Assembly (NCBI GenBank): GCA_024277115.1
Contig: JAJRVW010000076.1
Location: 1 to 33,843 of the forward strand
Reading direction: 5' to 3'
Length of the DNA: 33,843 nucleotides
Source: Calditrichota bacterium
GTDB taxonomy: Bacteria > Calditrichota > Calditrichia > Calditrichales > J004
In this document: positions 12,214-20,561 of the stretch, piece by piece
Position numbering within the stretch: position 1 is the first letter of the stretch
How the letters are laid out: each line of letters begins with the position of its first letter
Program-made: the position numbers and the translations under genes
The notes under the pieces: model-generated
Database searches by the model: none
The model's input: only the letters and a program-made list of their open reading frames with translations
What the model was told of the DNA's origin: nothing

Positions 12214-12291
12214 TTTGCATGTAGGATCGGATTGAGATGAGCTGTTTTTGATACTTATTGCGACAGGCACTAGCCAGGCTTAAATAAATAT

Positions 12292-12320
12292 TTGACTTTT
12301 TTTAAGATTAGCCTTAATGT
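12292..12320 (+). promoter_or_regulatory. Promoter of the ilv operon
   Basis: TTGACT (12292-12297) is followed after 17 bp by TAATGT (12315-12320). Transcription would start near 12327, about 38 bases before the leader peptide ATG. The -10 is weaker than that of the other promoters in the window. TAATGTTG would also be one mismatch from the Bacteroidota-type TAnnTTTG, so the -10 class is not fully settled. Confidence 0.5.
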
Positions 12321-12364
12321 TGCCGACAACAAAACAAACAAAAAAATAGATTAAAGATTTTCAA

Positions 12365-12421
12365 ATGAAAAAAATTAGCCTCCTCCTCATTAACATTATT
12401 TTAGTGATTATTATTACCTAA
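12365..12421 (+). CDS. ilvL: ilv leader peptide (attenuator control peptide)
   Basis: This short open frame encodes MKKISLLLINIILVIIIT, 18 residues. Seven are Ile, four are Leu, one is Val and one is Thr, so 12 of 18 are branched-chain amino acids, including the blocks LLL and III. The stop codon TAA (12419-12421) lies three bases before the antiterminator arm at 12425. A weak ribosome site (AAAGA) stands at 12353-12357. Leader peptides of this composition control ilv operons in enterobacteria by stalling the ribosome when charged Ile, Leu or Val tRNA is scarce. Here the peptide sits between an ilv promoter and a strong terminator in front of ilvE. The gene symbol is given by analogy of position and function, not by homology, since leader peptides are too short to compare. 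Confidence 0.85.
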   Translation: MKKISLLLINIILVIIIT

Positions 12422-12424
12422 AGG

Positions 12425-12486
12425 GGAATGGCGTACATACATACAATTTTATAAAGGCCATTCCAAACGGGATGGCCTTTTTTTTT
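12425..12486 (+). terminator. ilv attenuator: antiterminator arm and intrinsic terminator
   Basis: The terminator pairs AAAGGCCATTCC (12453-12464) with GGGATGGCCTTT (12469-12480) over 12 bp with one wobble, around AAAC, and runs into nine T residues (12478-12486). The upstream octamer GGAATGGC (12425-12432) is exactly complementary to GCCATTCC (12457-12464) inside the terminator's left arm, so the two structures exclude each other. A ribosome that reaches the leader stop at 12419-12421 would cover 12425-12432 and leave the terminator free to form. A ribosome stalled at the Ile/Leu codons would leave this arm open to pair and block termination. Confidence 0.88.
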
Positions 12487-12522
12487 GTCCAAAAAGGAAA
12501 TACACCACAAGGAGCTTTTATC

Positions 12523-13413
12523 ATGTACCACAACGAACACACAACAGTTTATCTAAATGGCGAATGGAAAAATGTTGAGCAGGCAAAAGTTGCGCCCTAT
12601 GGCCAAACAATCCAAAATGGCAATGGCGTGTTTGAAGGCCTGCGCGCTTACCCAACGCCTTTGGGCACACAGGTTTTTATGGTTTATGAACACTTTGAGC
12701 GTTTACTGTATTCATGCGGGGTTATGAGCATAAAACTTAATTATTCTGTGGATGAGTTAGTTCAGCTTACGTACGAATTACTTGATCGTAACAATCTTAA
12801 AAACGCCTATATTCGCCCCTTGGTTTACCTGGGGGAAAATATGGATTTGGAGACCGCGGGAAAATCGAACTTGTTTCTTAGCGCATGGGAATGGCAGCCA
12901 TATCTTGGCAACCGGTTGTTACGCGTGATGGGCTCATCTTTTCAAAAGCCCAACCCCAAAGCCTTTTTTATTGAAGCAAAAGTGAGCGGCCATTATGTAA
13001 ATTCCATCCTGGCCAAAAATGAAGCGCGGGCCAAAGGGTTTGATGATGCCCTGTTAAACGATATGAACGGTTTTGTGGCGGAAGGGCCGGGCGAGAACTT
13101 TTTTTATGAAAAAGACGGATGCTTGTATACAGCGCCACGAGGACATATTCTTCCCGGCATCACTCGGGCAACGGTGATGCAACTGGCGCAGGATTTATCA
13201 ATTCCGGTAAAAGAAACGCTGTTTAAGATGGAAGATGTTGAAGGGGCTGACGGCGCATTTTTTACAGGTACGGCCGCTGAGGTTGCCGGGCTGGAATCAT
13301 TAAATGGCGTAAAATTTAAAAAAGCCTGGGAAGATACTTTTGGCAACACCTTGCAGCAGGCTTATAAAGGCCTTGTCCGCAGCGCAGAGGCGCATATTGT
13401 GGATTTAGTGTAA
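12523..13413 (+). CDS. ilvE: Branched-chain amino acid aminotransferase
   Basis: A 296-residue fold-type IV PLP aminotransferase that makes the last step to Ile, Val and Leu from the keto acids and glutamate. It shows the N-terminal VYLNGEWKNVEQAKV and GNGVFEGLRAY, the PLP-lysine segment AKVSGHYVNS (Lys153), FVAEGPGENFF and TPRGHILPGITR-like APRGHILPGITR. The start at 12523 is chosen because AAGGAG lies 9 to 14 bases upstream and the protein then begins in the usual family position (MYHNEHTTVYLNGEW). An in-frame ATG at 12472 would lie inside the attenuator's terminator and would encode its T-run as Phe codons, so it is rejected. First structural gene of the ilv operon, under the leader-peptide attenuator. 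Confidence 0.95.
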   Translation: MYHNEHTTVYLNGEWKNVEQAKVAPYGQTIQNGNGVFEGLRAYPTPLGTQVFMVYEHFERLLYSCGVMSIKLNYSVDELVQLTYELLDRNNLKNAYIRPLVYLGENMDLETAGKSNLFLSAWEWQPYLGNRLLRVMGSSFQKPNPKAFFIEAKVSGHYVNSILAKNEARAKGFDDALLNDMNGFVAEGPGENFFYEKDGCLYTAPRGHILPGITRATVMQLAQDLSIPVKETLFKMEDVEGADGAFFTGTAAEVAGLESLNGVKFKKAWEDTFGNTLQQAYKGLVRSAEAHIVDLV

Positions 13414-13545: not shown

Positions 13546-15219
13546 ATGGAATTAAACAAATTTAGTAAACGGGTCACACAAGATGAAAGTCAGCCGGCAG
13601 CACAGGCCATGCTTCATGCCATTGGCCTCTCGGTGGATGATTTAAAAAAGGCGCAGATAGGGATCGCAAGCACAGGTTATGAAGGCAATCCCTGTAATAT
13701 GCACCTGAATGATTTATCCGTACATGTAAAAAAGGGGACGGACGAAGCCGGTTTGGTGGGGTTGGTTTTTCACACAATCGGTGTTAGTGATGGCATTTCC
13801 ATGGGTACGCCGGGAATGCGTTTTTCTTTGCCCTCACGGGATGTGATTGCCGATTCCATCGAAACCGTGATGGAAGCCCAGGCTTATGACGGCTTGGTTG
13901 CTGTGGTCGGTTGCGATAAAAATATGCCGGGCGCTTTGATGGCCATGTGCCGATTGGATCGTCCGGCCATTTTAATGTATGGGGGCACTATTGCCTCGGG
14001 TTGCCTGGATGATAAAAAGCTGGACGTGGTTTCCGCATTTGAAGCCTGGGGCGAGAAGGTAGCCGGGAAAATGAGCGATGATAAATTCCAGCAAGTGAAA
14101 GAAAATGCCTGCCCGGGCGCGGGCGCTTGTGGTGGCATGTATACCGCCAATACCATGGCCTCGGCAATTGAAGCTTTGGGCATGAGCTTGCCTTACACTT
14201 CTTCCACGCCGGCCATCGGGCATGGCAAAGAGCAGGAATGCCAACAAGCCGGAAAAGCCATCTTAAATTTATTAGAAAAAAATATCACGCCTAAAAAAAT
14301 CCTCACAAAAAAATCTTTTGAAAACGCCATACGCCTTGTGACTGTTTTGGGCGGCTCCACCAATGCCGTGCTCCATTTTCTGGCCATTGCCAAAGCGGCC
14401 AATGTAGATTTTACCCTTGCCGATTTCCAGCGCATCAGCGATGAAACACCCTTTTTGGCCAACTTAAAACCCAGCGGGAAATACCTGATGGAAGACATCC
14501 ATAAAATAGGTGGTGTGCCCGCGGTGATGAAATTTATGCTGGAGAATAATTTGCTAAATGGTGATTGCCTGACAGTAACCGGAAAAACGATCGCTGAAAA
14601 TTTGGAAAATGTGCAGCCCGTCAACACAGGTCAGGATGTTATTGCGCCGATTGATAATCCTATAAAAGCTACCGGGCATATCCAGATTTTATTTGGCAAC
14701 CTGGCACGGGAAGGCGCCGTTGCAAAAATCACCGGAAAAGAGGGTTTGAAGTTTAGAGGCCGGGCAAAAGTTTTTGATTCGGAATATGCGACGAATGACG
14801 CGATCGGCGCCGGCAAGGTAAAAAAGGGCGATGTAGTTGTAATCCGTTATGAGGGGCCAAGAGGCGGGCCGGGCATGGCGGAGATGCTTAAACCGACTGC
14901 TGCCATAATGGGGCAGGGTTTGGGAAGTGAAGTTGCTTTGATTACCGATGGCCGTTTCTCCGGTGGGACGCATGGTTTTGTTGTTGGCCATATTACGCCC
15001 GAAGCACAAGTAGGCGGCGCCATCGCTTTGGTGCAGGACGGTGATTGGATTACCATCGATGCGGAAAATAACAGCCTGAATGTTGAGTTGAGCGATGAAG
15101 AACTTTCTGAAAGAAAAAAGAATTGGGTACGGCCACCGCTAAAGGCCAAGCGCGGAGTTTTATATAAATATGCACGATTTGTTTCATCCGCATCAACAGG
15201 TTGTGTAACGGATGAATAA
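13546..15219 (+). CDS. ilvD: Dihydroxy-acid dehydratase
   Basis: A 557-residue IlvD/Edd-family dehydratase that converts 2,3-dihydroxy-isovalerate and -methylvalerate to the keto acids. Iron-sulfur ligands are visible as Cys50 ([10 protein letters not shown]), Cys123 ([10 protein letters not shown]) and Cys195 ([14 protein letters not shown]); Lys125 next to Asp124 is the position of the carbamylated Mg-binding lysine in characterised members. Three conserved cysteines fit the [2Fe-2S] group better than the [4Fe-4S] one, by family knowledge. Other landmarks are [23 protein letters not shown] and [22 protein letters not shown]. Full length for the family. The start has little ribosome-site match (ATGGATATATGG), so translation may depend partly on coupling or on the upstream structure. 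Confidence 0.97.
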
Positions 15220-15286
15220 CAGGGGTTTTGGTTTGCTGGGACAGGATAATGTTTTATCGTTCCCATGGGGTTTATTTTATTGAAGT

Positions 15287-15305
15287 GACAGGACAGTGTC
15301 CTGTC
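15287..15305. repeat. Perfect 19-bp palindrome between ilvD and ilvB
   Basis: GACAGGACAGTGTCCTGTC has two perfect 9-bp arms around a single central G. The one-base centre makes a duplex DNA binding site as likely as an RNA hairpin. A partial relative with the same ACAGTGTC core lies at 25341-25357 before the photolyase-like gene. It could be an operator or a short dispersed repeat. Confidence 0.6.
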
Positions 15306-15385
15306 CAACGTTTTATTCCATTTAAACTACCGGCAAGTTTCTTTGAATTTGTAATTAAACTTTAAAAATAAAAGAGGACAAAATT

Positions 15386-16069
15386 ATGGCACAAGCCGTA
15401 AAACAGAATGCGGTTTTTCCGGGGATAGAAAATATGTCTGAAGAAAAAGTGCAGAAAAAAGTACAAACTGAAAAAATGAGCGGCTCTGAAGCGGTTGTCC
15501 GTTCGCTTCTGGCGGAAGGTGTTGATACACTCTTCGGCTATCCCGGTGGGGCGATAATGCCTGTCTATGATTTGCTCTACAAATATCAGGACAAATTGCA
15601 CCATGTGCTTACCCGCCACGAGCAAGGCGCAGTACATGCGGCGCAAGGGTATGCGCGGGTATCGGGCAGAGTTGGGGTTTGTATTGCTACTTCCGGGCCG
15701 GGGGCAACCAACCTGATTACGGGGATTGCCGATGCTTATATCGATTCCACGCCGATTGTCTGTATTACCGGGCAGGTGGCAAGCGCGCTTTTAGGTACCG
15801 ACGCTTTTCAGGAAACGGATGTGGTCGGTATTTCCATGCCGGTCACAAAATGGAACTATCAGGTTACCAAGGCCGAGGATATTCCATTGGCCATTGCCAA
15901 AGCATTTCACATTGCGGCAAGCGGCAGGCCCGGGCCGGTGCTAATTGACATTACCAAAGATGCCCAGTTTGGCGAACTTGATTTTGAGTATTTGCATTGT
16001 AAAAAGATCCGTAGCTACAAACCGGTACCCGAAGTTAAAATGGAAAAATCGAAGCGGCCGTTGAACTGA
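15386..16069 (+). CDS. ilvB: Acetolactate synthase large subunit, N-terminal part (frameshifted gene)
   Basis: The first 220 or so residues of acetohydroxyacid synthase, which condenses pyruvate with pyruvate or 2-ketobutyrate using TPP. The N-terminal TPP-binding domain is intact: [29 protein letters not shown], catalytic Glu79 in TRHEQGA, and the conserved [29 protein letters not shown] and FQETDVVGI. The frame then fails at the run of five A at 16044-16048: the tail KSKRPLN is not IlvB-like, while re-reading from 16048 in the -1 frame gives [19 protein letters not shown], which continues the protein. One missing A explains it. A GAGG ribosome site precedes the ATG. The first 33 residues before MSGSEAVV are an unusual lysine/glutamine-rich extension. 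Confidence 0.9.
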
Positions 16070-17154
16070 TCAACAAGGCTAAAAAGCCGTTTGTTGTATT
16101 TGGGCAAGGTGTGATTTTGGGCGAGGCGGAAGCGGAGTTGAAGGCCTTTGTCGAGAAAAGTGGCATCCCGGCCGGTTGGACTTTGTTAGGCCTTTCGGCT
16201 TTAGAAACAGACCATCCTTTAAATGTAGGCATGTTGGGTATGCATGGAAATTACGCGCCTAATAAGCTGACTAACGAATGCGACCTGCTCATTGCCATCG
16301 GCATGCGTTTTGATGACCGGGTAACGGGTGATGTATCGCGTTATGCCAAACAGGCCAAGGTGATTCATATCGAGATTGATAAAGCTGAAATCAATAAAAA
16401 CGTGCAGGCAGATGTTGGGCTTCATGCGGATGTGAAAGAAGCTTTGCCCTTAATTACAAAAGGTATTGAGAAACGCGAGCACCCGGAATGGCTGCAAAAA
16501 TTCCATGCCTATAAGCAAACAGAGCAAGAGGTCATAATCAAAAAAGATTTATACCCCAACAAAGAAAAATTAACTATGGGCGAGGTTGTCCGGCTGATTT
16601 CCGAAAAGACAGAAGGCAAGGCCGTTATAGTCTCGGATGTGGGGCAGCACCAGATGATTGCCAGCCGTTACTCAAAATTTAAACAGAGCAAAAGCAATAT
16701 TACCTCTGGCGGATTGGGCACAATGGGCTTTGGCCTGCCTGCCGCTATGGGCGCAAAATTGGGCGCACCGGACCGAACTGTTGTTGCCATTGCCGGGGAT
16801 GGTGGTTTTCAGATGACCATCCAGGAATTGGGTACGGTAATGCAGACTGAAATTAATCTGAAAATTGTAGTGCTCAATAATAATTTTTTGGGCATGGTAC
16901 GCCAGTGGCAAGAGCTCTTTTTTGATAAACGCTATGCGTCGACTGTAATGACTAATCCTGATTTTATTACTATTGCCAAGGGGTATGGCATTGAAGGCGA
17001 ACGGGTCGAGGTAAGGAATAATCTTGAAAAAGCGGTGCAAAAAATGTTGGATTTTAAAGGCGCGTATTTACTGGAAGTAAGAGTGGGTAAAGAGGACAAC
17101 GTTTTTCCGATGATACCGACGGGTGCTGCGGTTTCGGAAATACGGTTGGATTGA
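16048..17154 (+). CDS. ilvB: Acetolactate synthase large subunit, C-terminal part (frameshifted gene)
   Basis: This is the rest of the same large subunit, read in the -1 frame relative to the upstream part; coding similarity starts at the ATC at 16048 and an isolated frame would begin at the GTG at 16111. It carries the central FAD-associated domain ([48 protein letters not shown]) and the C-terminal TPP-Mg motif [29 protein letters not shown], followed by [13 protein letters not shown]. Both halves together give the family's usual length and all expected motifs, so only one base separates this from an intact gene. Given the intact ilvN and ilvC around it, a consensus error or a recent lesion is more likely than an old pseudogene. 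Confidence 0.9.
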
Positions 17155-17165
17155 TTAGGTTGGCA

Positions 17166-17197
17166 GGTTCCACCGTTTGATGCGGTGGAATTTGTTT
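17166..17197 (+). terminator. Terminator-like hairpin between ilvB and ilvN
   Basis: TTCCACCG (17168-17175) pairs perfectly with CGGTGGAA (17183-17190) around TTTGATG, extended by two G-T wobbles, and is followed by TGTTTTATT. It lies inside the operon, 12 bases after the ilvB stop, so it may lower expression of the downstream genes or protect the upstream mRNA from 3' decay. Confidence 0.55.
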
Positions 17198-17233
17198 TAT
17201 TGTTGCATTTAAATTTTACGAGAGAGGATTCTC

Positions 17234-17779
17234 ATGAAAGAACAATTTACAATTTCGGTTTTTACAGAAAACCATATCGGGATTTTGAGCCGGATAACCA
17301 TCATTTTTACACGACGGCATATAAATATTGAAAGCCTGACCGTATCGGAAACCGAGGTAAAAGGGATTTCCCGGTACACGGTTGTTGTAACCGAGACGCG
17401 CGACATCGTCCGTAAAGTTGTAAAACAACTGGAACGGCAGATTGAGGTTTTCGAGGCTTATTATCATACCTCCGATGAGGTGATTTATCAGGAGATCGCG
17501 CTGTATAAATTGCCCATAAAAGCCATCACCGAAGGGGTGAGTATTGAAAATATTATTCGCCAGCATTACGCGCGGATATTAACCGTTGAGGAAAACTTTT
17601 TAATTATCGAAAAAAGTGGCCATAAGGAACAGACACAAGCGCTGTTGGAGGAACTGGAACCTTTTGGCGTAATGGAGTTTGTCCGTTCCGGGCGTGTGGC
17701 AATAATCAAACCGATGTGGAAATTTAATGAAGGCTTGCATGAGATGGAGAGGCGAGAGCCCGAACTTTTGGTGGAGTAA
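17234..17779 (+). CDS. ilvN: Acetolactate synthase small (regulatory) subunit
   Basis: A 181-residue regulatory subunit of acetohydroxyacid synthase. Residues 1-75 form an ACT domain that binds valine in this family (FTISVFTENHIGILSRITIIFTRRHINIESLTVSETE). Residues about 85-165 match the second ALS small-subunit domain, with the family pattern EIALYKLP near its start and a final FGVMEFVRSGRVAI. It is longer than E. coli IlvN/IlvM and close to IlvH in length. It should dimerise with the product of ilvB and confer feedback inhibition. A GAGAGGA ribosome site precedes the ATG. Confidence 0.94.
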   Translation: MKEQFTISVFTENHIGILSRITIIFTRRHINIESLTVSETEVKGISRYTVVVTETRDIVRKVVKQLERQIEVFEAYYHTSDEVIYQEIALYKLPIKAITEGVSIENIIRQHYARILTVEENFLIIEKSGHKEQTQALLEELEPFGVMEFVRSGRVAIIKPMWKFNEGLHEMERREPELLVE

Positions 17780-17919
17780 ACGGCGTGAGGCTGTAAGACT
17801 GTTGAGTGTGTTTTACGAAATCCCGGTGTTCTTTATGGGGAAAAGATTAAAGAATTGTAAGATTGAAATGGCGTGGTTTGTTAACAAAATTACATTTTTA
17901 AAATGAAGGAAAATGACAA

Positions 17920-18966
17920 ATGGCAGTAATTAATTTTGGTGGTGTTGAAGAAAATGTTATCACACGTGAGGAATTTCCTCTGGAAAAGGCGCAGAATGTT
18001 TTAAAGGATGAAACGGTTGCGGTTATCGGTTATGGCGTGCAGGGTCCGGGCCAATCGTTAAATTTAAAGGACAATGGCATCAATGTTATTGTCGGCCAAA
18101 GAAAGGAATCCAAAACATGGGACAAAGCGGTAAAAGATGGCTGGGTGCCGTGCGAGACACTTTTTGAAATTGAACAGGCGTTGAAAAAGGGGACAATAAT
18201 AATTTATCTCCTCTCTGATGCGGCGCAAATTGCCGTTTGGCCGACTGTAAAAAAACATTTAACGGCAGGCAAGACACTTTATTTTTCCCATGGTTTTGGC
18301 ATCACTTATAAAGAGCGTACGGGGATTATTCCGCCGGACGATGTGGATGTTATCCTGGTTGCCCCAAAAGGCTCGGGTACAAGTTTACGACGTTTATTTG
18401 TGGAAGGCCGGGGATTAAATTCCAGTTTTGGCGTTTTTCAGGATGCGACGGGAAAAGCTAAAGAAAAAGCCATTGCCCTGGGGATTGCCGTTGGCTCGGG
18501 CTATCTTTTTGAAACGGACTTTAAACGCGAAGTTTATAGCGATTTGACTGGCGAGCGTGGCACTTTGATGGGGTGTATCCAGGGTGTGTTTGCTGCCCAA
18601 TATGATACATTACGGAAAAACGGCCATTCACCATCGGAAGCATTTAACGAAACTGTGGAAGAACTGACCCAGAGCTTAATGCCCCTTGTTGCCGAAAATG
18701 GCATGGACTGGATGTATGCCAACTGTTCTACTACGGCCCAACGTGGCGCGCTGGATTGGTGGAAAAAATTCCGTGATTCCGTTGCCCCTGTTTTTGATGA
18801 TTTGTATAAAAGTGTTGCCGCCGGGGAAGAGGCACAGCGCTCAATCGACTCCAACAGCCAGCCCGATTATCGTGAAAAACTGGATGCCGAGCTTAAAGAA
18901 ATGCATGACTCGGAGATGTGGCAAACCGGGCAAGCTGTTCGCAAGTTGAGGCCGGAGAATAAGTAG
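17920..18966 (+). CDS. ilvC: Ketol-acid reductoisomerase, Ilv5-like type
   Basis: A 348-residue NADPH-dependent acetohydroxyacid isomeroreductase. The Rossmann motif is GYGVQGPGQSLNLKDNG, followed by the cofactor loop VGQRKESKTW; the active site has YFSHGFGI, VAPKGSGTSLRRLF and the metal-binding SDLTGERGTLMG. The C-terminal half continues AQYDTLRKNGHSPSEAFNETVEE, YANCSTTAQRGALDWW, SNSQPDYREKLDAEL and ends VRKLRPENK. These segments agree closely with the fungal mitochondrial Ilv5 type rather than with the short class I enzymes (LFGEQ, about 330 residues) or the long plant/E. coli class II. The type is known in some bacteria of the Bacteroidota side. An AAGGA ribosome site lies upstream. Confidence 0.95.
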   Translation: MAVINFGGVEENVITREEFPLEKAQNVLKDETVAVIGYGVQGPGQSLNLKDNGINVIVGQRKESKTWDKAVKDGWVPCETLFEIEQALKKGTIIIYLLSDAAQIAVWPTVKKHLTAGKTLYFSHGFGITYKERTGIIPPDDVDVILVAPKGSGTSLRRLFVEGRGLNSSFGVFQDATGKAKEKAIALGIAVGSGYLFETDFKREVYSDLTGERGTLMGCIQGVFAAQYDTLRKNGHSPSEAFNETVEELTQSLMPLVAENGMDWMYANCSTTAQRGALDWWKKFRDSVAPVFDDLYKSVAAGEEAQRSIDSNSQPDYREKLDAELKEMHDSEMWQTGQAVRKLRPENK

Positions 18967-18987
18967 TTCGATTTGTGAAAAGCATGG

Positions 18988-19015
18988 GGCAATATAACAA
19001 TCTTAAAGTATTGCC
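18988..19015. repeat. Short inverted repeat in the ilvC-ilvA gap
   Basis: GGCAATA (18988-18994) pairs with TATTGCC (19009-19015) around a 14-base loop. No T-run follows, so termination is doubtful. The rest of the 308-bp gap up to ilvA is AT-rich and holds only the weak promoter listed at 19137; I see no attenuator or leader peptide in it. Confidence 0.3.
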
Positions 19016-19136
19016 AGCTCAGCCATACTTTTTCAAGACAACATTCTAAAATTTTAAAAAACAAAAGACAAATAAATCTCAATGGAACAATACTTAAATA
19101 TCAAACGACATGTCATATTTGAGGTGATGTTAAAAC

Positions 19137-19164
19137 TTGGACTTTGGGGTTTATTTGTTATTTA
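19137..19164 (+). promoter_or_regulatory. Possible separate promoter for ilvA
   Basis: TTGGAC (19137-19142) and TATTTA (19159-19164) are separated by 16 bp and lie about 110 bp before the ilvA ATG. The 308-bp gap after ilvC makes an independent promoter reasonable. The match is moderate. Confidence 0.35.
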
Positions 19165-19274
19165 ATGCTTCTCTTTTGTGATTTCCTATATTTTACTTTA
19201 GCATTTTAGGTGTAACAGTTAATTTAAATTTCACAGGCCCAAAAATCTGAAGGATCAAAGCTAAAAAGGTAAAT

Positions 19275-20561
19275 ATGCTTGATAAACAAACACTGTTTGA
19301 AAAAATAGAACAAAACTATTCACCATCACTTGATACCATCAAAGGTGCGGCCGAAACATTAAAAGATGTTGTCAACCACACTCCTTTATCAAAAAACCTG
19401 AACCTATCGGAACGCTATAATTGTACTATTTTGTTGAAGCGGGAAGACCTGCAAATCGTACGTTCCTACAAAATCCGTGGGGCATTTAATAAAATCAGCA
19501 GCCTGGGGCCGAAGCAGACAGAGAATGGTATTGTATGTGCCAGTGCCGGAAATCATGCTCAAGGCGTAGCTTATTCGTGCAGGGCGGCCGGTATTCACGG
19601 CACTATTTTTATGCCGGTTACGACACCACAACAAAAAGTAAAACAGGTACAAATGTTTGGCCGTGAGTTTGTTACGATCGAGCTTGTTGGGGATAGTTTT
19701 GATGAGGCTTATGAAGAATCCATAAAATTTGCAGAGAAAAACGGATCGCCTTTTATCCATCCTTTCGATGATGAAAAAGTGATTGAAGGGCAGGGGACAA
19801 TTGCCCTGGAAATATTAGAACAGGCCAAAGAGAAAATTGATTATCTTCTTTTACCTGTGGGCGGAGGTGGGTTGGCTTCGGGCGTGGGCAGCGTGTTTAA
19901 AAAACTTAGCCCGGAGACAAAAATAATTGGGATTGAACCTGCCGGCGCGCCATCGATGAGCGATGCGTTTCAGAATAACCATGTCACGATTTTAGATGAA
20001 ATCGATAATTTTGTGGACGGTGCGGCTGTTAAACAGGCGGGCAGGCAAACCTTTGAGATTTGTAAAAACGTACTCGATAAAATGGTAACCGTGGATGAAG
20101 GTGCGATTTGTACCACTATCCTAAGTTTGTACAATGAAGATGCCATTGTTGTGGAACCCGCTGGCGCTATGTCCATTACAGCGCTTAATTTATTTAAGGA
20201 TGAAATTGCCGGTAAAAATGTAGTATGTCTGCTCTCCGGCAGTAATAACGATATTACCCGCACAGAAGAAATTAAGGAACGCTCCCTACTTTATGAAGGG
20301 TTAAAACACTATTTCATTATCCGTTTTCCACAACGGGCAGGCGCTTTAAAACAATTTGTAAATAATGTGCTTGGCCCTGATGATGACATTGCCTATTTTG
20401 AGTATTCTAAAAAAACCAGCAGGGAGAAAGGCCCGGCGGTTGTGGGGATTGAAATTACATCCAAAGATGAGTTTGTCCCGCTCATTACCCGTATGGAGCA
20501 CAACGGCTTTATTTATGAATACCTCAATGACAAACCGACCCTGTTTCAATATTTGATTTAA
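19275..20561 (+). CDS. ilvA: Threonine dehydratase (threonine ammonia-lyase)
   Basis: A 428-residue PLP enzyme that deaminates threonine to 2-ketobutyrate, the committed step to isoleucine. The catalytic domain has KREDLQIVRSYKIRGAFNK with the PLP lysine Lys66, the substrate loop ASAGNHAQGVAYS and the phosphate-binding GGGGLASG. Residues about 340-428 form a single C-terminal ACT-like regulatory domain (HYFIIRFPQRAGALKQFVNNVLG ... GFIYEYLND), as in the shorter IlvA class, which differs from the two-domain E. coli enzyme. The domain suggests allosteric control by isoleucine and/or valine. Its place right after ilvC supports the biosynthetic rather than the catabolic role. Confidence 0.94.
   Translation: MLDKQTLFEKIEQNYSPSLDTIKGAAETLKDVVNHTPLSKNLNLSERYNCTILLKREDLQIVRSYKIRGAFNKISSLGPKQTENGIVCASAGNHAQGVAYSCRAAGIHGTIFMPVTTPQQKVKQVQMFGREFVTIELVGDSFDEAYEESIKFAEKNGSPFIHPFDDEKVIEGQGTIALEILEQAKEKIDYLLLPVGGGGLASGVGSVFKKLSPETKIIGIEPAGAPSMSDAFQNNHVTILDEIDNFVDGAAVKQAGRQTFEICKNVLDKMVTVDEGAICTTILSLYNEDAIVVEPAGAMSITALNLFKDEIAGKNVVCLLSGSNNDITRTEEIKERSLLYEGLKHYFIIRFPQRAGALKQFVNNVLGPDDDIAYFEYSKKTSREKGPAVVGIEITSKDEFVPLITRMEHNGFIYEYLNDKPTLFQYLI

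Follow-up and report, generated by a model that had tools for sequence, protein, structure and literature searches.

What does the region between positions 12292 and 12486 do for the branched-chain amino acid operon that follows it? The region lies upstream of ilvE in the 33,843-nucleotide stretch of DNA analyzed here (the window), which is part of a draft Calditrichota genome of 4.97 Mb. A first-pass annotation had read it as a ribosome-mediated Ile/Leu/Val attenuator of an FCB-group bacterium and had further proposed a switch of only two structures, in which no separate protector segment is needed. We find strong support for the first proposal in the conservation, covariation, and geometry of the element, which is real, in all likelihood functional, and, judging from its sequence and that of its relatives, very probably a ribosome-mediated attenuator of the classical kind that controls transcription of the ilvEDBNCA operon. 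The second proposal fares less well: For this lineage, a three-segment attenuator appears more likely than a two-structure one.

Elements of the leader region

The features of the locus are collected in Table 1. The leader peptide has seven Ile, four Leu, and one Val among its 18 residues (12/18), and the terminator, a hairpin of 12 pairs with an AAAC loop (−19.6 kcal/mol, z = −3.75), runs into nine T (12478-12486); both agree with the initial description. So does the octamer within the antiterminator arm, which starts three bases past the leader stop and is perfectly complementary to GCCATTCC (12457-12464), a part of the terminator left arm. CTC is rare in the window (6% of its Leu codons) but accounts for three of the four Leu codons in the leader, where it may have been chosen as a rare regulatory codon. 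We thus see a short ORF rich in control codons upstream of a biosynthetic operon (101 nt from ilvE), an intrinsic terminator between the leader and the first gene, as in branched-chain attenuators, and an antiterminator arm that the ribosome can reach and that is complementary to the terminator left arm.

Most of the probable promoter falls inside the 12292-12486 interval, and transcription would be expected to start near 12328. A promoter scan with the E. coli consensus returned nothing relevant; the boxes here resemble the Bacteroidota promoter.

Table 1. Features of the ilv leader and operon in the window
Feature	Position	Strand	Details
Probable Bacteroidota-type promoter	12291..12322	+	TTTG 12291-12294, 20 nt, TAATGTTG 12315-12322
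Leader peptide ORF	12365..12421	+	ATG 12365, stop 12419-12421; translation MKKISLLLINIILVIIIT
Candidate protector (segment 1) AGCCUCCUCCUCA	12378..12390	+	Can pair with 12423-12432; duplex −11.8 kcal/mol
Antiterminator 5′ arm (segment 2) GGGAATGGC	12424..12432	+	Octamer GGAATGGC 12425-12432
Terminator left arm (segment 3) AAAGGCCATTCC	12453..12464	+	12-pair stem
Terminator right arm (segment 4) GGGATGGCCTTT	12469..12480	+	12-pair stem
ilvE (branched-chain aminotransferase), first operon gene	12523..13413	+	Nearest named relatives 52% identical, Chitinophagia
ilvD, ilvB (frameshifted), ilvN, ilvC, ilvA	13546..20561	+	Rest of operon

Chance occurrence and specificity

Among 3000 dinucleotide shuffles of 12250-12522, we observe neither the whole module (0/3000) nor a peptide with 9/10 Ile/Leu/Val (0/3000), and a terminator as good as the native one arises once. 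As a genomic background, we scanned both strands of 698,235 bases of fetched loci for the complete module under strict criteria. There are seven matches, and all seven lie directly upstream of ilv genes: this window, the only genome of the same genus (G001), two in a genome from a different Calditrichota family (G030), one in G182, and two Chitinophagia loci.

This association with ilv genes bears on the possibility that the terminator merely closes off an independent small RNA or a transcript from upstream and that the peptide is a small membrane protein, not a sensor. The peptide is hydrophobic, and even by itself the terminator would halt all transcription coming from upstream. Such an origin, however, would not lead the module to track ilv genes throughout 698 kb, gives no reason for the antiterminator complementarity or for its fixed spacing to the control codons described below, and leaves aside the replacement of Ile/Leu/Val codons by His codons before hisG; we regard it as highly improbable.

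In Rfam, no family matches the window at the gathering score, and none matches at threshold at the attenuators of 12 related loci. The best sub-threshold scores of a permissive search of the window are those of sau-41, a staphylococcal RNA family (29.5 bits; threshold 80), and Thr_leader (25.6 bits). This family is probably the S. aureus ilvD leader. A second match of the region in its own genome (C55) was rejected as a chance similarity of 32 bases, unrelated to ilv.

Proposed mechanism and folding

A classical attenuator at this locus would act as follows. RNA polymerase would start near 12328, and a ribosome would translate the 18-codon peptide. With enough charged Ile, Leu, and Val tRNA, the ribosome would arrive at the stop codon and cover GGGAATGGC (12424-12432), the terminator (12453-12480) would form, and transcription would stop near 12486. 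With Ile, Leu, or Val in short supply, the ribosome would stall at an early control codon (Ile4, Leu6-8, or Ile9) and mask the candidate protector (12378-12390); GGGAATGGC would then be free for the terminator left arm, and this pairing would let the polymerase read through into ilvE. In an untranslated leader, pairing between protector and antiterminator would favor termination. The sequence elements, together with how they are conserved, covary, and are spaced, are observed directly; promoter activity, translation, how strongly and in which direction the operon would respond, and what the protector does in this particular leader are inferred. That a ribosome at the stop codon masks the antiterminator was initially put forward as a new simplification; it is already part of the established trp-type model.

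We folded RNAs of increasing length in which the positions under the ribosome were masked, with assumed footprint sizes. At RNA ends between 12466 and 12474, the antiterminator pair probability is 0.87 with the ribosome at Leu6 or Ile9, 0.3-0.5 with the ribosome at Ile17, and 0.00 with the ribosome at the stop, and as far as RNA end 12474, the folding agrees with the predictions of the model. If no ribosome is present, protector pairing comes first, but emergence of the left arm allows the antiterminator to replace it at equilibrium (0.85-0.87). When the right arm is complete, equilibrium folding makes the terminator stable in every ribosome state. Because the terminator then prevails at equilibrium irrespective of the ribosome, the decision has to be a kinetic one, as it is in other attenuators.

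We also considered that the leader might act mainly on ilvE translation or on Rho, and not through intrinsic termination. The ilvE ATG (12523) is 42 nt past the hairpin, a distance that lends this idea some appeal; yet the stem is perfect and carries nine T, and the antiterminator arm targets the terminator left arm, not the ilvE start region. We give such a mode of action very little credence.

Candidate protector pairing within the leader ORF

If the antiterminator competed with the terminator only, with the ribosome at the stop as sole protector, an untranslated leader would give read-through and no protector would be needed. Each of the four Calditrichota leaders (the window, G001, and both of G030) can nevertheless form a helix between codons 5-9 and the antiterminator arm. 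The helices form in the same place, nucleotides 11-27 of the ORF, with duplex energies of −11.8 (window), −15.8 (G001), and −16.6 and −20.5 kcal/mol (G030), and that of G001 consists of twelve perfect pairs, GUCAUUCUCAUU with AAUGGGAAUGGC, counting G-U. Compared with usage-weighted synonymous codons, protector pairing has P = 0.0195 in the window, 0.0037 in G001, and 0.0010 and 0.0015 in G030, a test that is confounded by the CTC preference in the leader. Compared with codon-order shuffles, the values are P = 0.13 in the window (not significant), 0.01 in G001, and 0.05 and 0.05 in G030. The protector helix of the classical three-segment form is strong in G001 and G030 and weak in the window itself.

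In a set of 21 leaders drawn from several lineages, upstream pairing by the arm is on average higher than in shuffles (0.72 vs. 0.57, mean rank 0.25), which again argues against a switch with two structures only. In favor of such a switch, the observed geometry does place GGGAATGGC under a ribosome at the stop, and in many Bacteroidota leaders protector pairing does not exceed that of synonymous codons (47 leaders, mean P = 0.45); L107, L114, and L117 are examples without pairing above these controls. Weighing both, we consider the two-structure switch unlikely here. In the three-segment attenuator that we prefer for this lineage, the window's own segment 1 would be a putative protector.

Conservation in relatives

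The leader of G001 encodes a homologous peptide, MKKINVILINIILVIIIT, and keeps both promoter boxes and their spacing; the sequence further upstream is not kept. GGGAATGGC is identical, and its distance from the stop has not changed; the terminator is retained, with one compensatory pair change in the stem (G-C to A-T) and the loop ATTC in place of the window's AAAC. In G030, a pair of consecutive modules precedes ilvD; their leader peptides are MKNFAAIILRLIVLPVIIIH and MIRISQLILSIILISILVLISSERE, and GGGAATGGC is identical in one of the two.

We find such a leader at 41 out of 47 ilvE loci under the stricter cut-off; the loci were picked by IlvE similarity and are nearly all from Bacteroidota, so that this is not a prevalence estimate. 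Most of the Chitinophagaceae and other Bacteroidota that we examined have the leader ahead of ilvE, and one Bacteroidota locus (L115) has GGGAATGG and GCCATTCC...GGGATGGC in common with the window. Tandem Ile/Leu/Val modules before a single ilv operon occur in Calditrichota (L057 4549-4305, minus strand) and in Bacteroidota (L110 1062-1244; L111 2778-2576, minus strand; L115 2624-2444, minus strand). Our literature search found no description of tandem leader-peptide attenuators, and these arrangements raise the testable question of why two sensors are stacked.

A C-terminal Pro-x-x-Gly-Gly-Gly is common among the leader peptides of the Chitinophagaceae loci L118-L145. Its Gly codons, GGAGGTGG, also serve as the antiterminator arm, and these residues therefore look conserved for RNA pairing.

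The genome collection contains 40 Calditrichota genomes. We found no leuA leaders in four of these genomes and no leaders before the other ilv operon type in the remaining Calditrichota. The leuA gene of the window's own genome (G000:C18:44635-46137) has one in-frame TGA, and that of G001 is intact. Before hisG in the window's own genome (L157 1314-1394), we observe a His-containing leader peptide, MKTAIKLITIHHTIIIRHTHVCLAGL, with a terminator and an antiterminator arm near the stop; a second Calditrichota genome (L156 2256-2182, minus strand) has the same arrangement with the peptide MPVRKKLNHTHCGHIHHSFIKGAQ, and a similar leader precedes hisG in G001. The leaders at L157 and L156 are probable his attenuators in Calditrichota. 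Near hisG in the window's genome, there is also a SAM riboswitch on the opposite strand (L157 857-962, minus strand; RF00162, 93 bits).

The operon and its relationships

Gene order and spacing suggest that ilvEDBNCA is co-transcribed. The ilvB gene (window 15386-17154) is split between two frames near 16039; compared with G001, whose ilvB is intact, it lacks one base, which could be either an assembly error or a real frameshift.

In a tree of IlvD, the window's genome, G001, G030, and G262 make up one fully supported clade, which adjoins Bacteroidota and is far from the IlvD of eight other Calditrichota. Since IlvD groups with Bacteroidota, the operon with its leader looks either horizontally acquired or of a separate ancient type; the tree gives no direction.

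Covariation and a spacing rule

For the covariation and correlation analyses, we picked 18 leaders as lineage representatives. The first-pass annotation had proposed comparing ilvE upstream regions among relatives. Across these 18 leaders, antiterminator and terminator left arm covary, their own pairs having a mean energy of −16.6 kcal/mol compared with −8.9 kcal/mol for swapped pairs, and none of 20,000 permutations is as good.

Between the last control codon and the start of the antiterminator arm, the mean distance is 9.0 nt (SD = 2.5, n = 47) and, among lineage representatives, 7.9 nt (SD = 2.8), with the caveat that A+T-rich Ile/Leu/Val codons themselves push a G+C-rich arm downstream of the run. 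Their A+T richness does not explain the clustering of the gap at 8-11 nt. The distance from arm to stop varies from −23 to +4 nt and correlates with the length of the peptide tail (r = −0.94, 18 representatives; 0 of 20,000 permutations as tight). The reference point is thus the last control codon, not the stop codon that was originally emphasized; in the window, the last Ile is followed by nothing but Thr and the stop, so the arm also comes to lie just beyond the stop. Most simply, a ribosome that stalls at the last control codon would just leave the arm exposed, and one that has gone past this codon would cover the arm.

We lean toward the view that these leaders, which most of the Chitinophagaceae examined possess, form an uncatalogued FCB-wide lineage of ilv attenuators that would have moved with the operon into Calditrichota. 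Its rule would be a fixed gap of ∼9 nt between the last control codon and the arm, near the leading edge of the ribosome, wherever the stop lies, and some of its members are tandem. Leader peptides of this kind are generally too short for gene annotation, and the fixed spacing offers a simple rule for finding more attenuators.

Comparison with known systems

We found no earlier report of leader-peptide attenuation in Calditrichota. The genome paper of Caldithrix abyssi (PMC5317091) discusses riboswitches, and the terms attenuation, leader, and ilv are absent from it. For the FCB group as a whole, the initial suggestion that such attenuators are undescribed was too strong: A general statement based on transcript mapping in Flavobacterium psychrophilum reports leader-peptide attenuation of amino acid operons (PMC9723704). 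This is the same class of mechanism in a phylum related to that of our host, Calditrichota; the passages in question describe no ilv element, antiterminator, or spacing. The Bacteroid-trp motif is among the candidate structured RNAs of Bacteroidetes (Weinberg et al., PMC2864571).

Attenuation by leader peptide has thus been reported before in Bacteroidota. A comparative study of 2004 by Vitreschak and colleagues reportedly also names Bacteroidetes/Chlorobi. The Chitinophagaceae and other Bacteroidota ilv leaders found here share the anatomy of the window's leader.

The S. aureus ilvD attenuator (PMC5794164) likewise has an Ile/Leu-rich leader peptide and a terminator before an ilv operon, but its peptide has 26 residues, CodY exerts control as well, and its proposed antiterminator pairs with the poly-U tail, not with the left arm as here. 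The ilvBNC attenuator of C. glutamicum (PMC11857589), an actinobacterial system, also combines leader-peptide-dependent ilv control with competing hairpins; it differs in having three hairpins.

The closest parallels in design are E. coli ilvL (ilvGMEDA) and trpL, which have in common with the window a short peptide rich in control codons, an intrinsic terminator, a candidate protector, and an antiterminator arm masked by the ribosome at the stop. In the same test, ilvL has a comparable protector helix (−16.8 kcal/mol). Rfam detected no homology of the window to the enterobacterial ilv leader, and the window differs from ilvGMEDA in its peptide (18 vs. 32 codons, with another sequence), in having ilvE first, and in its Bacteroidota-type promoter. 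The Calditrichota case adds to this known mechanism; it places leader-peptide attenuation in a further phylum and shows it to be common upstream of ilvE in the Bacteroidota loci examined.
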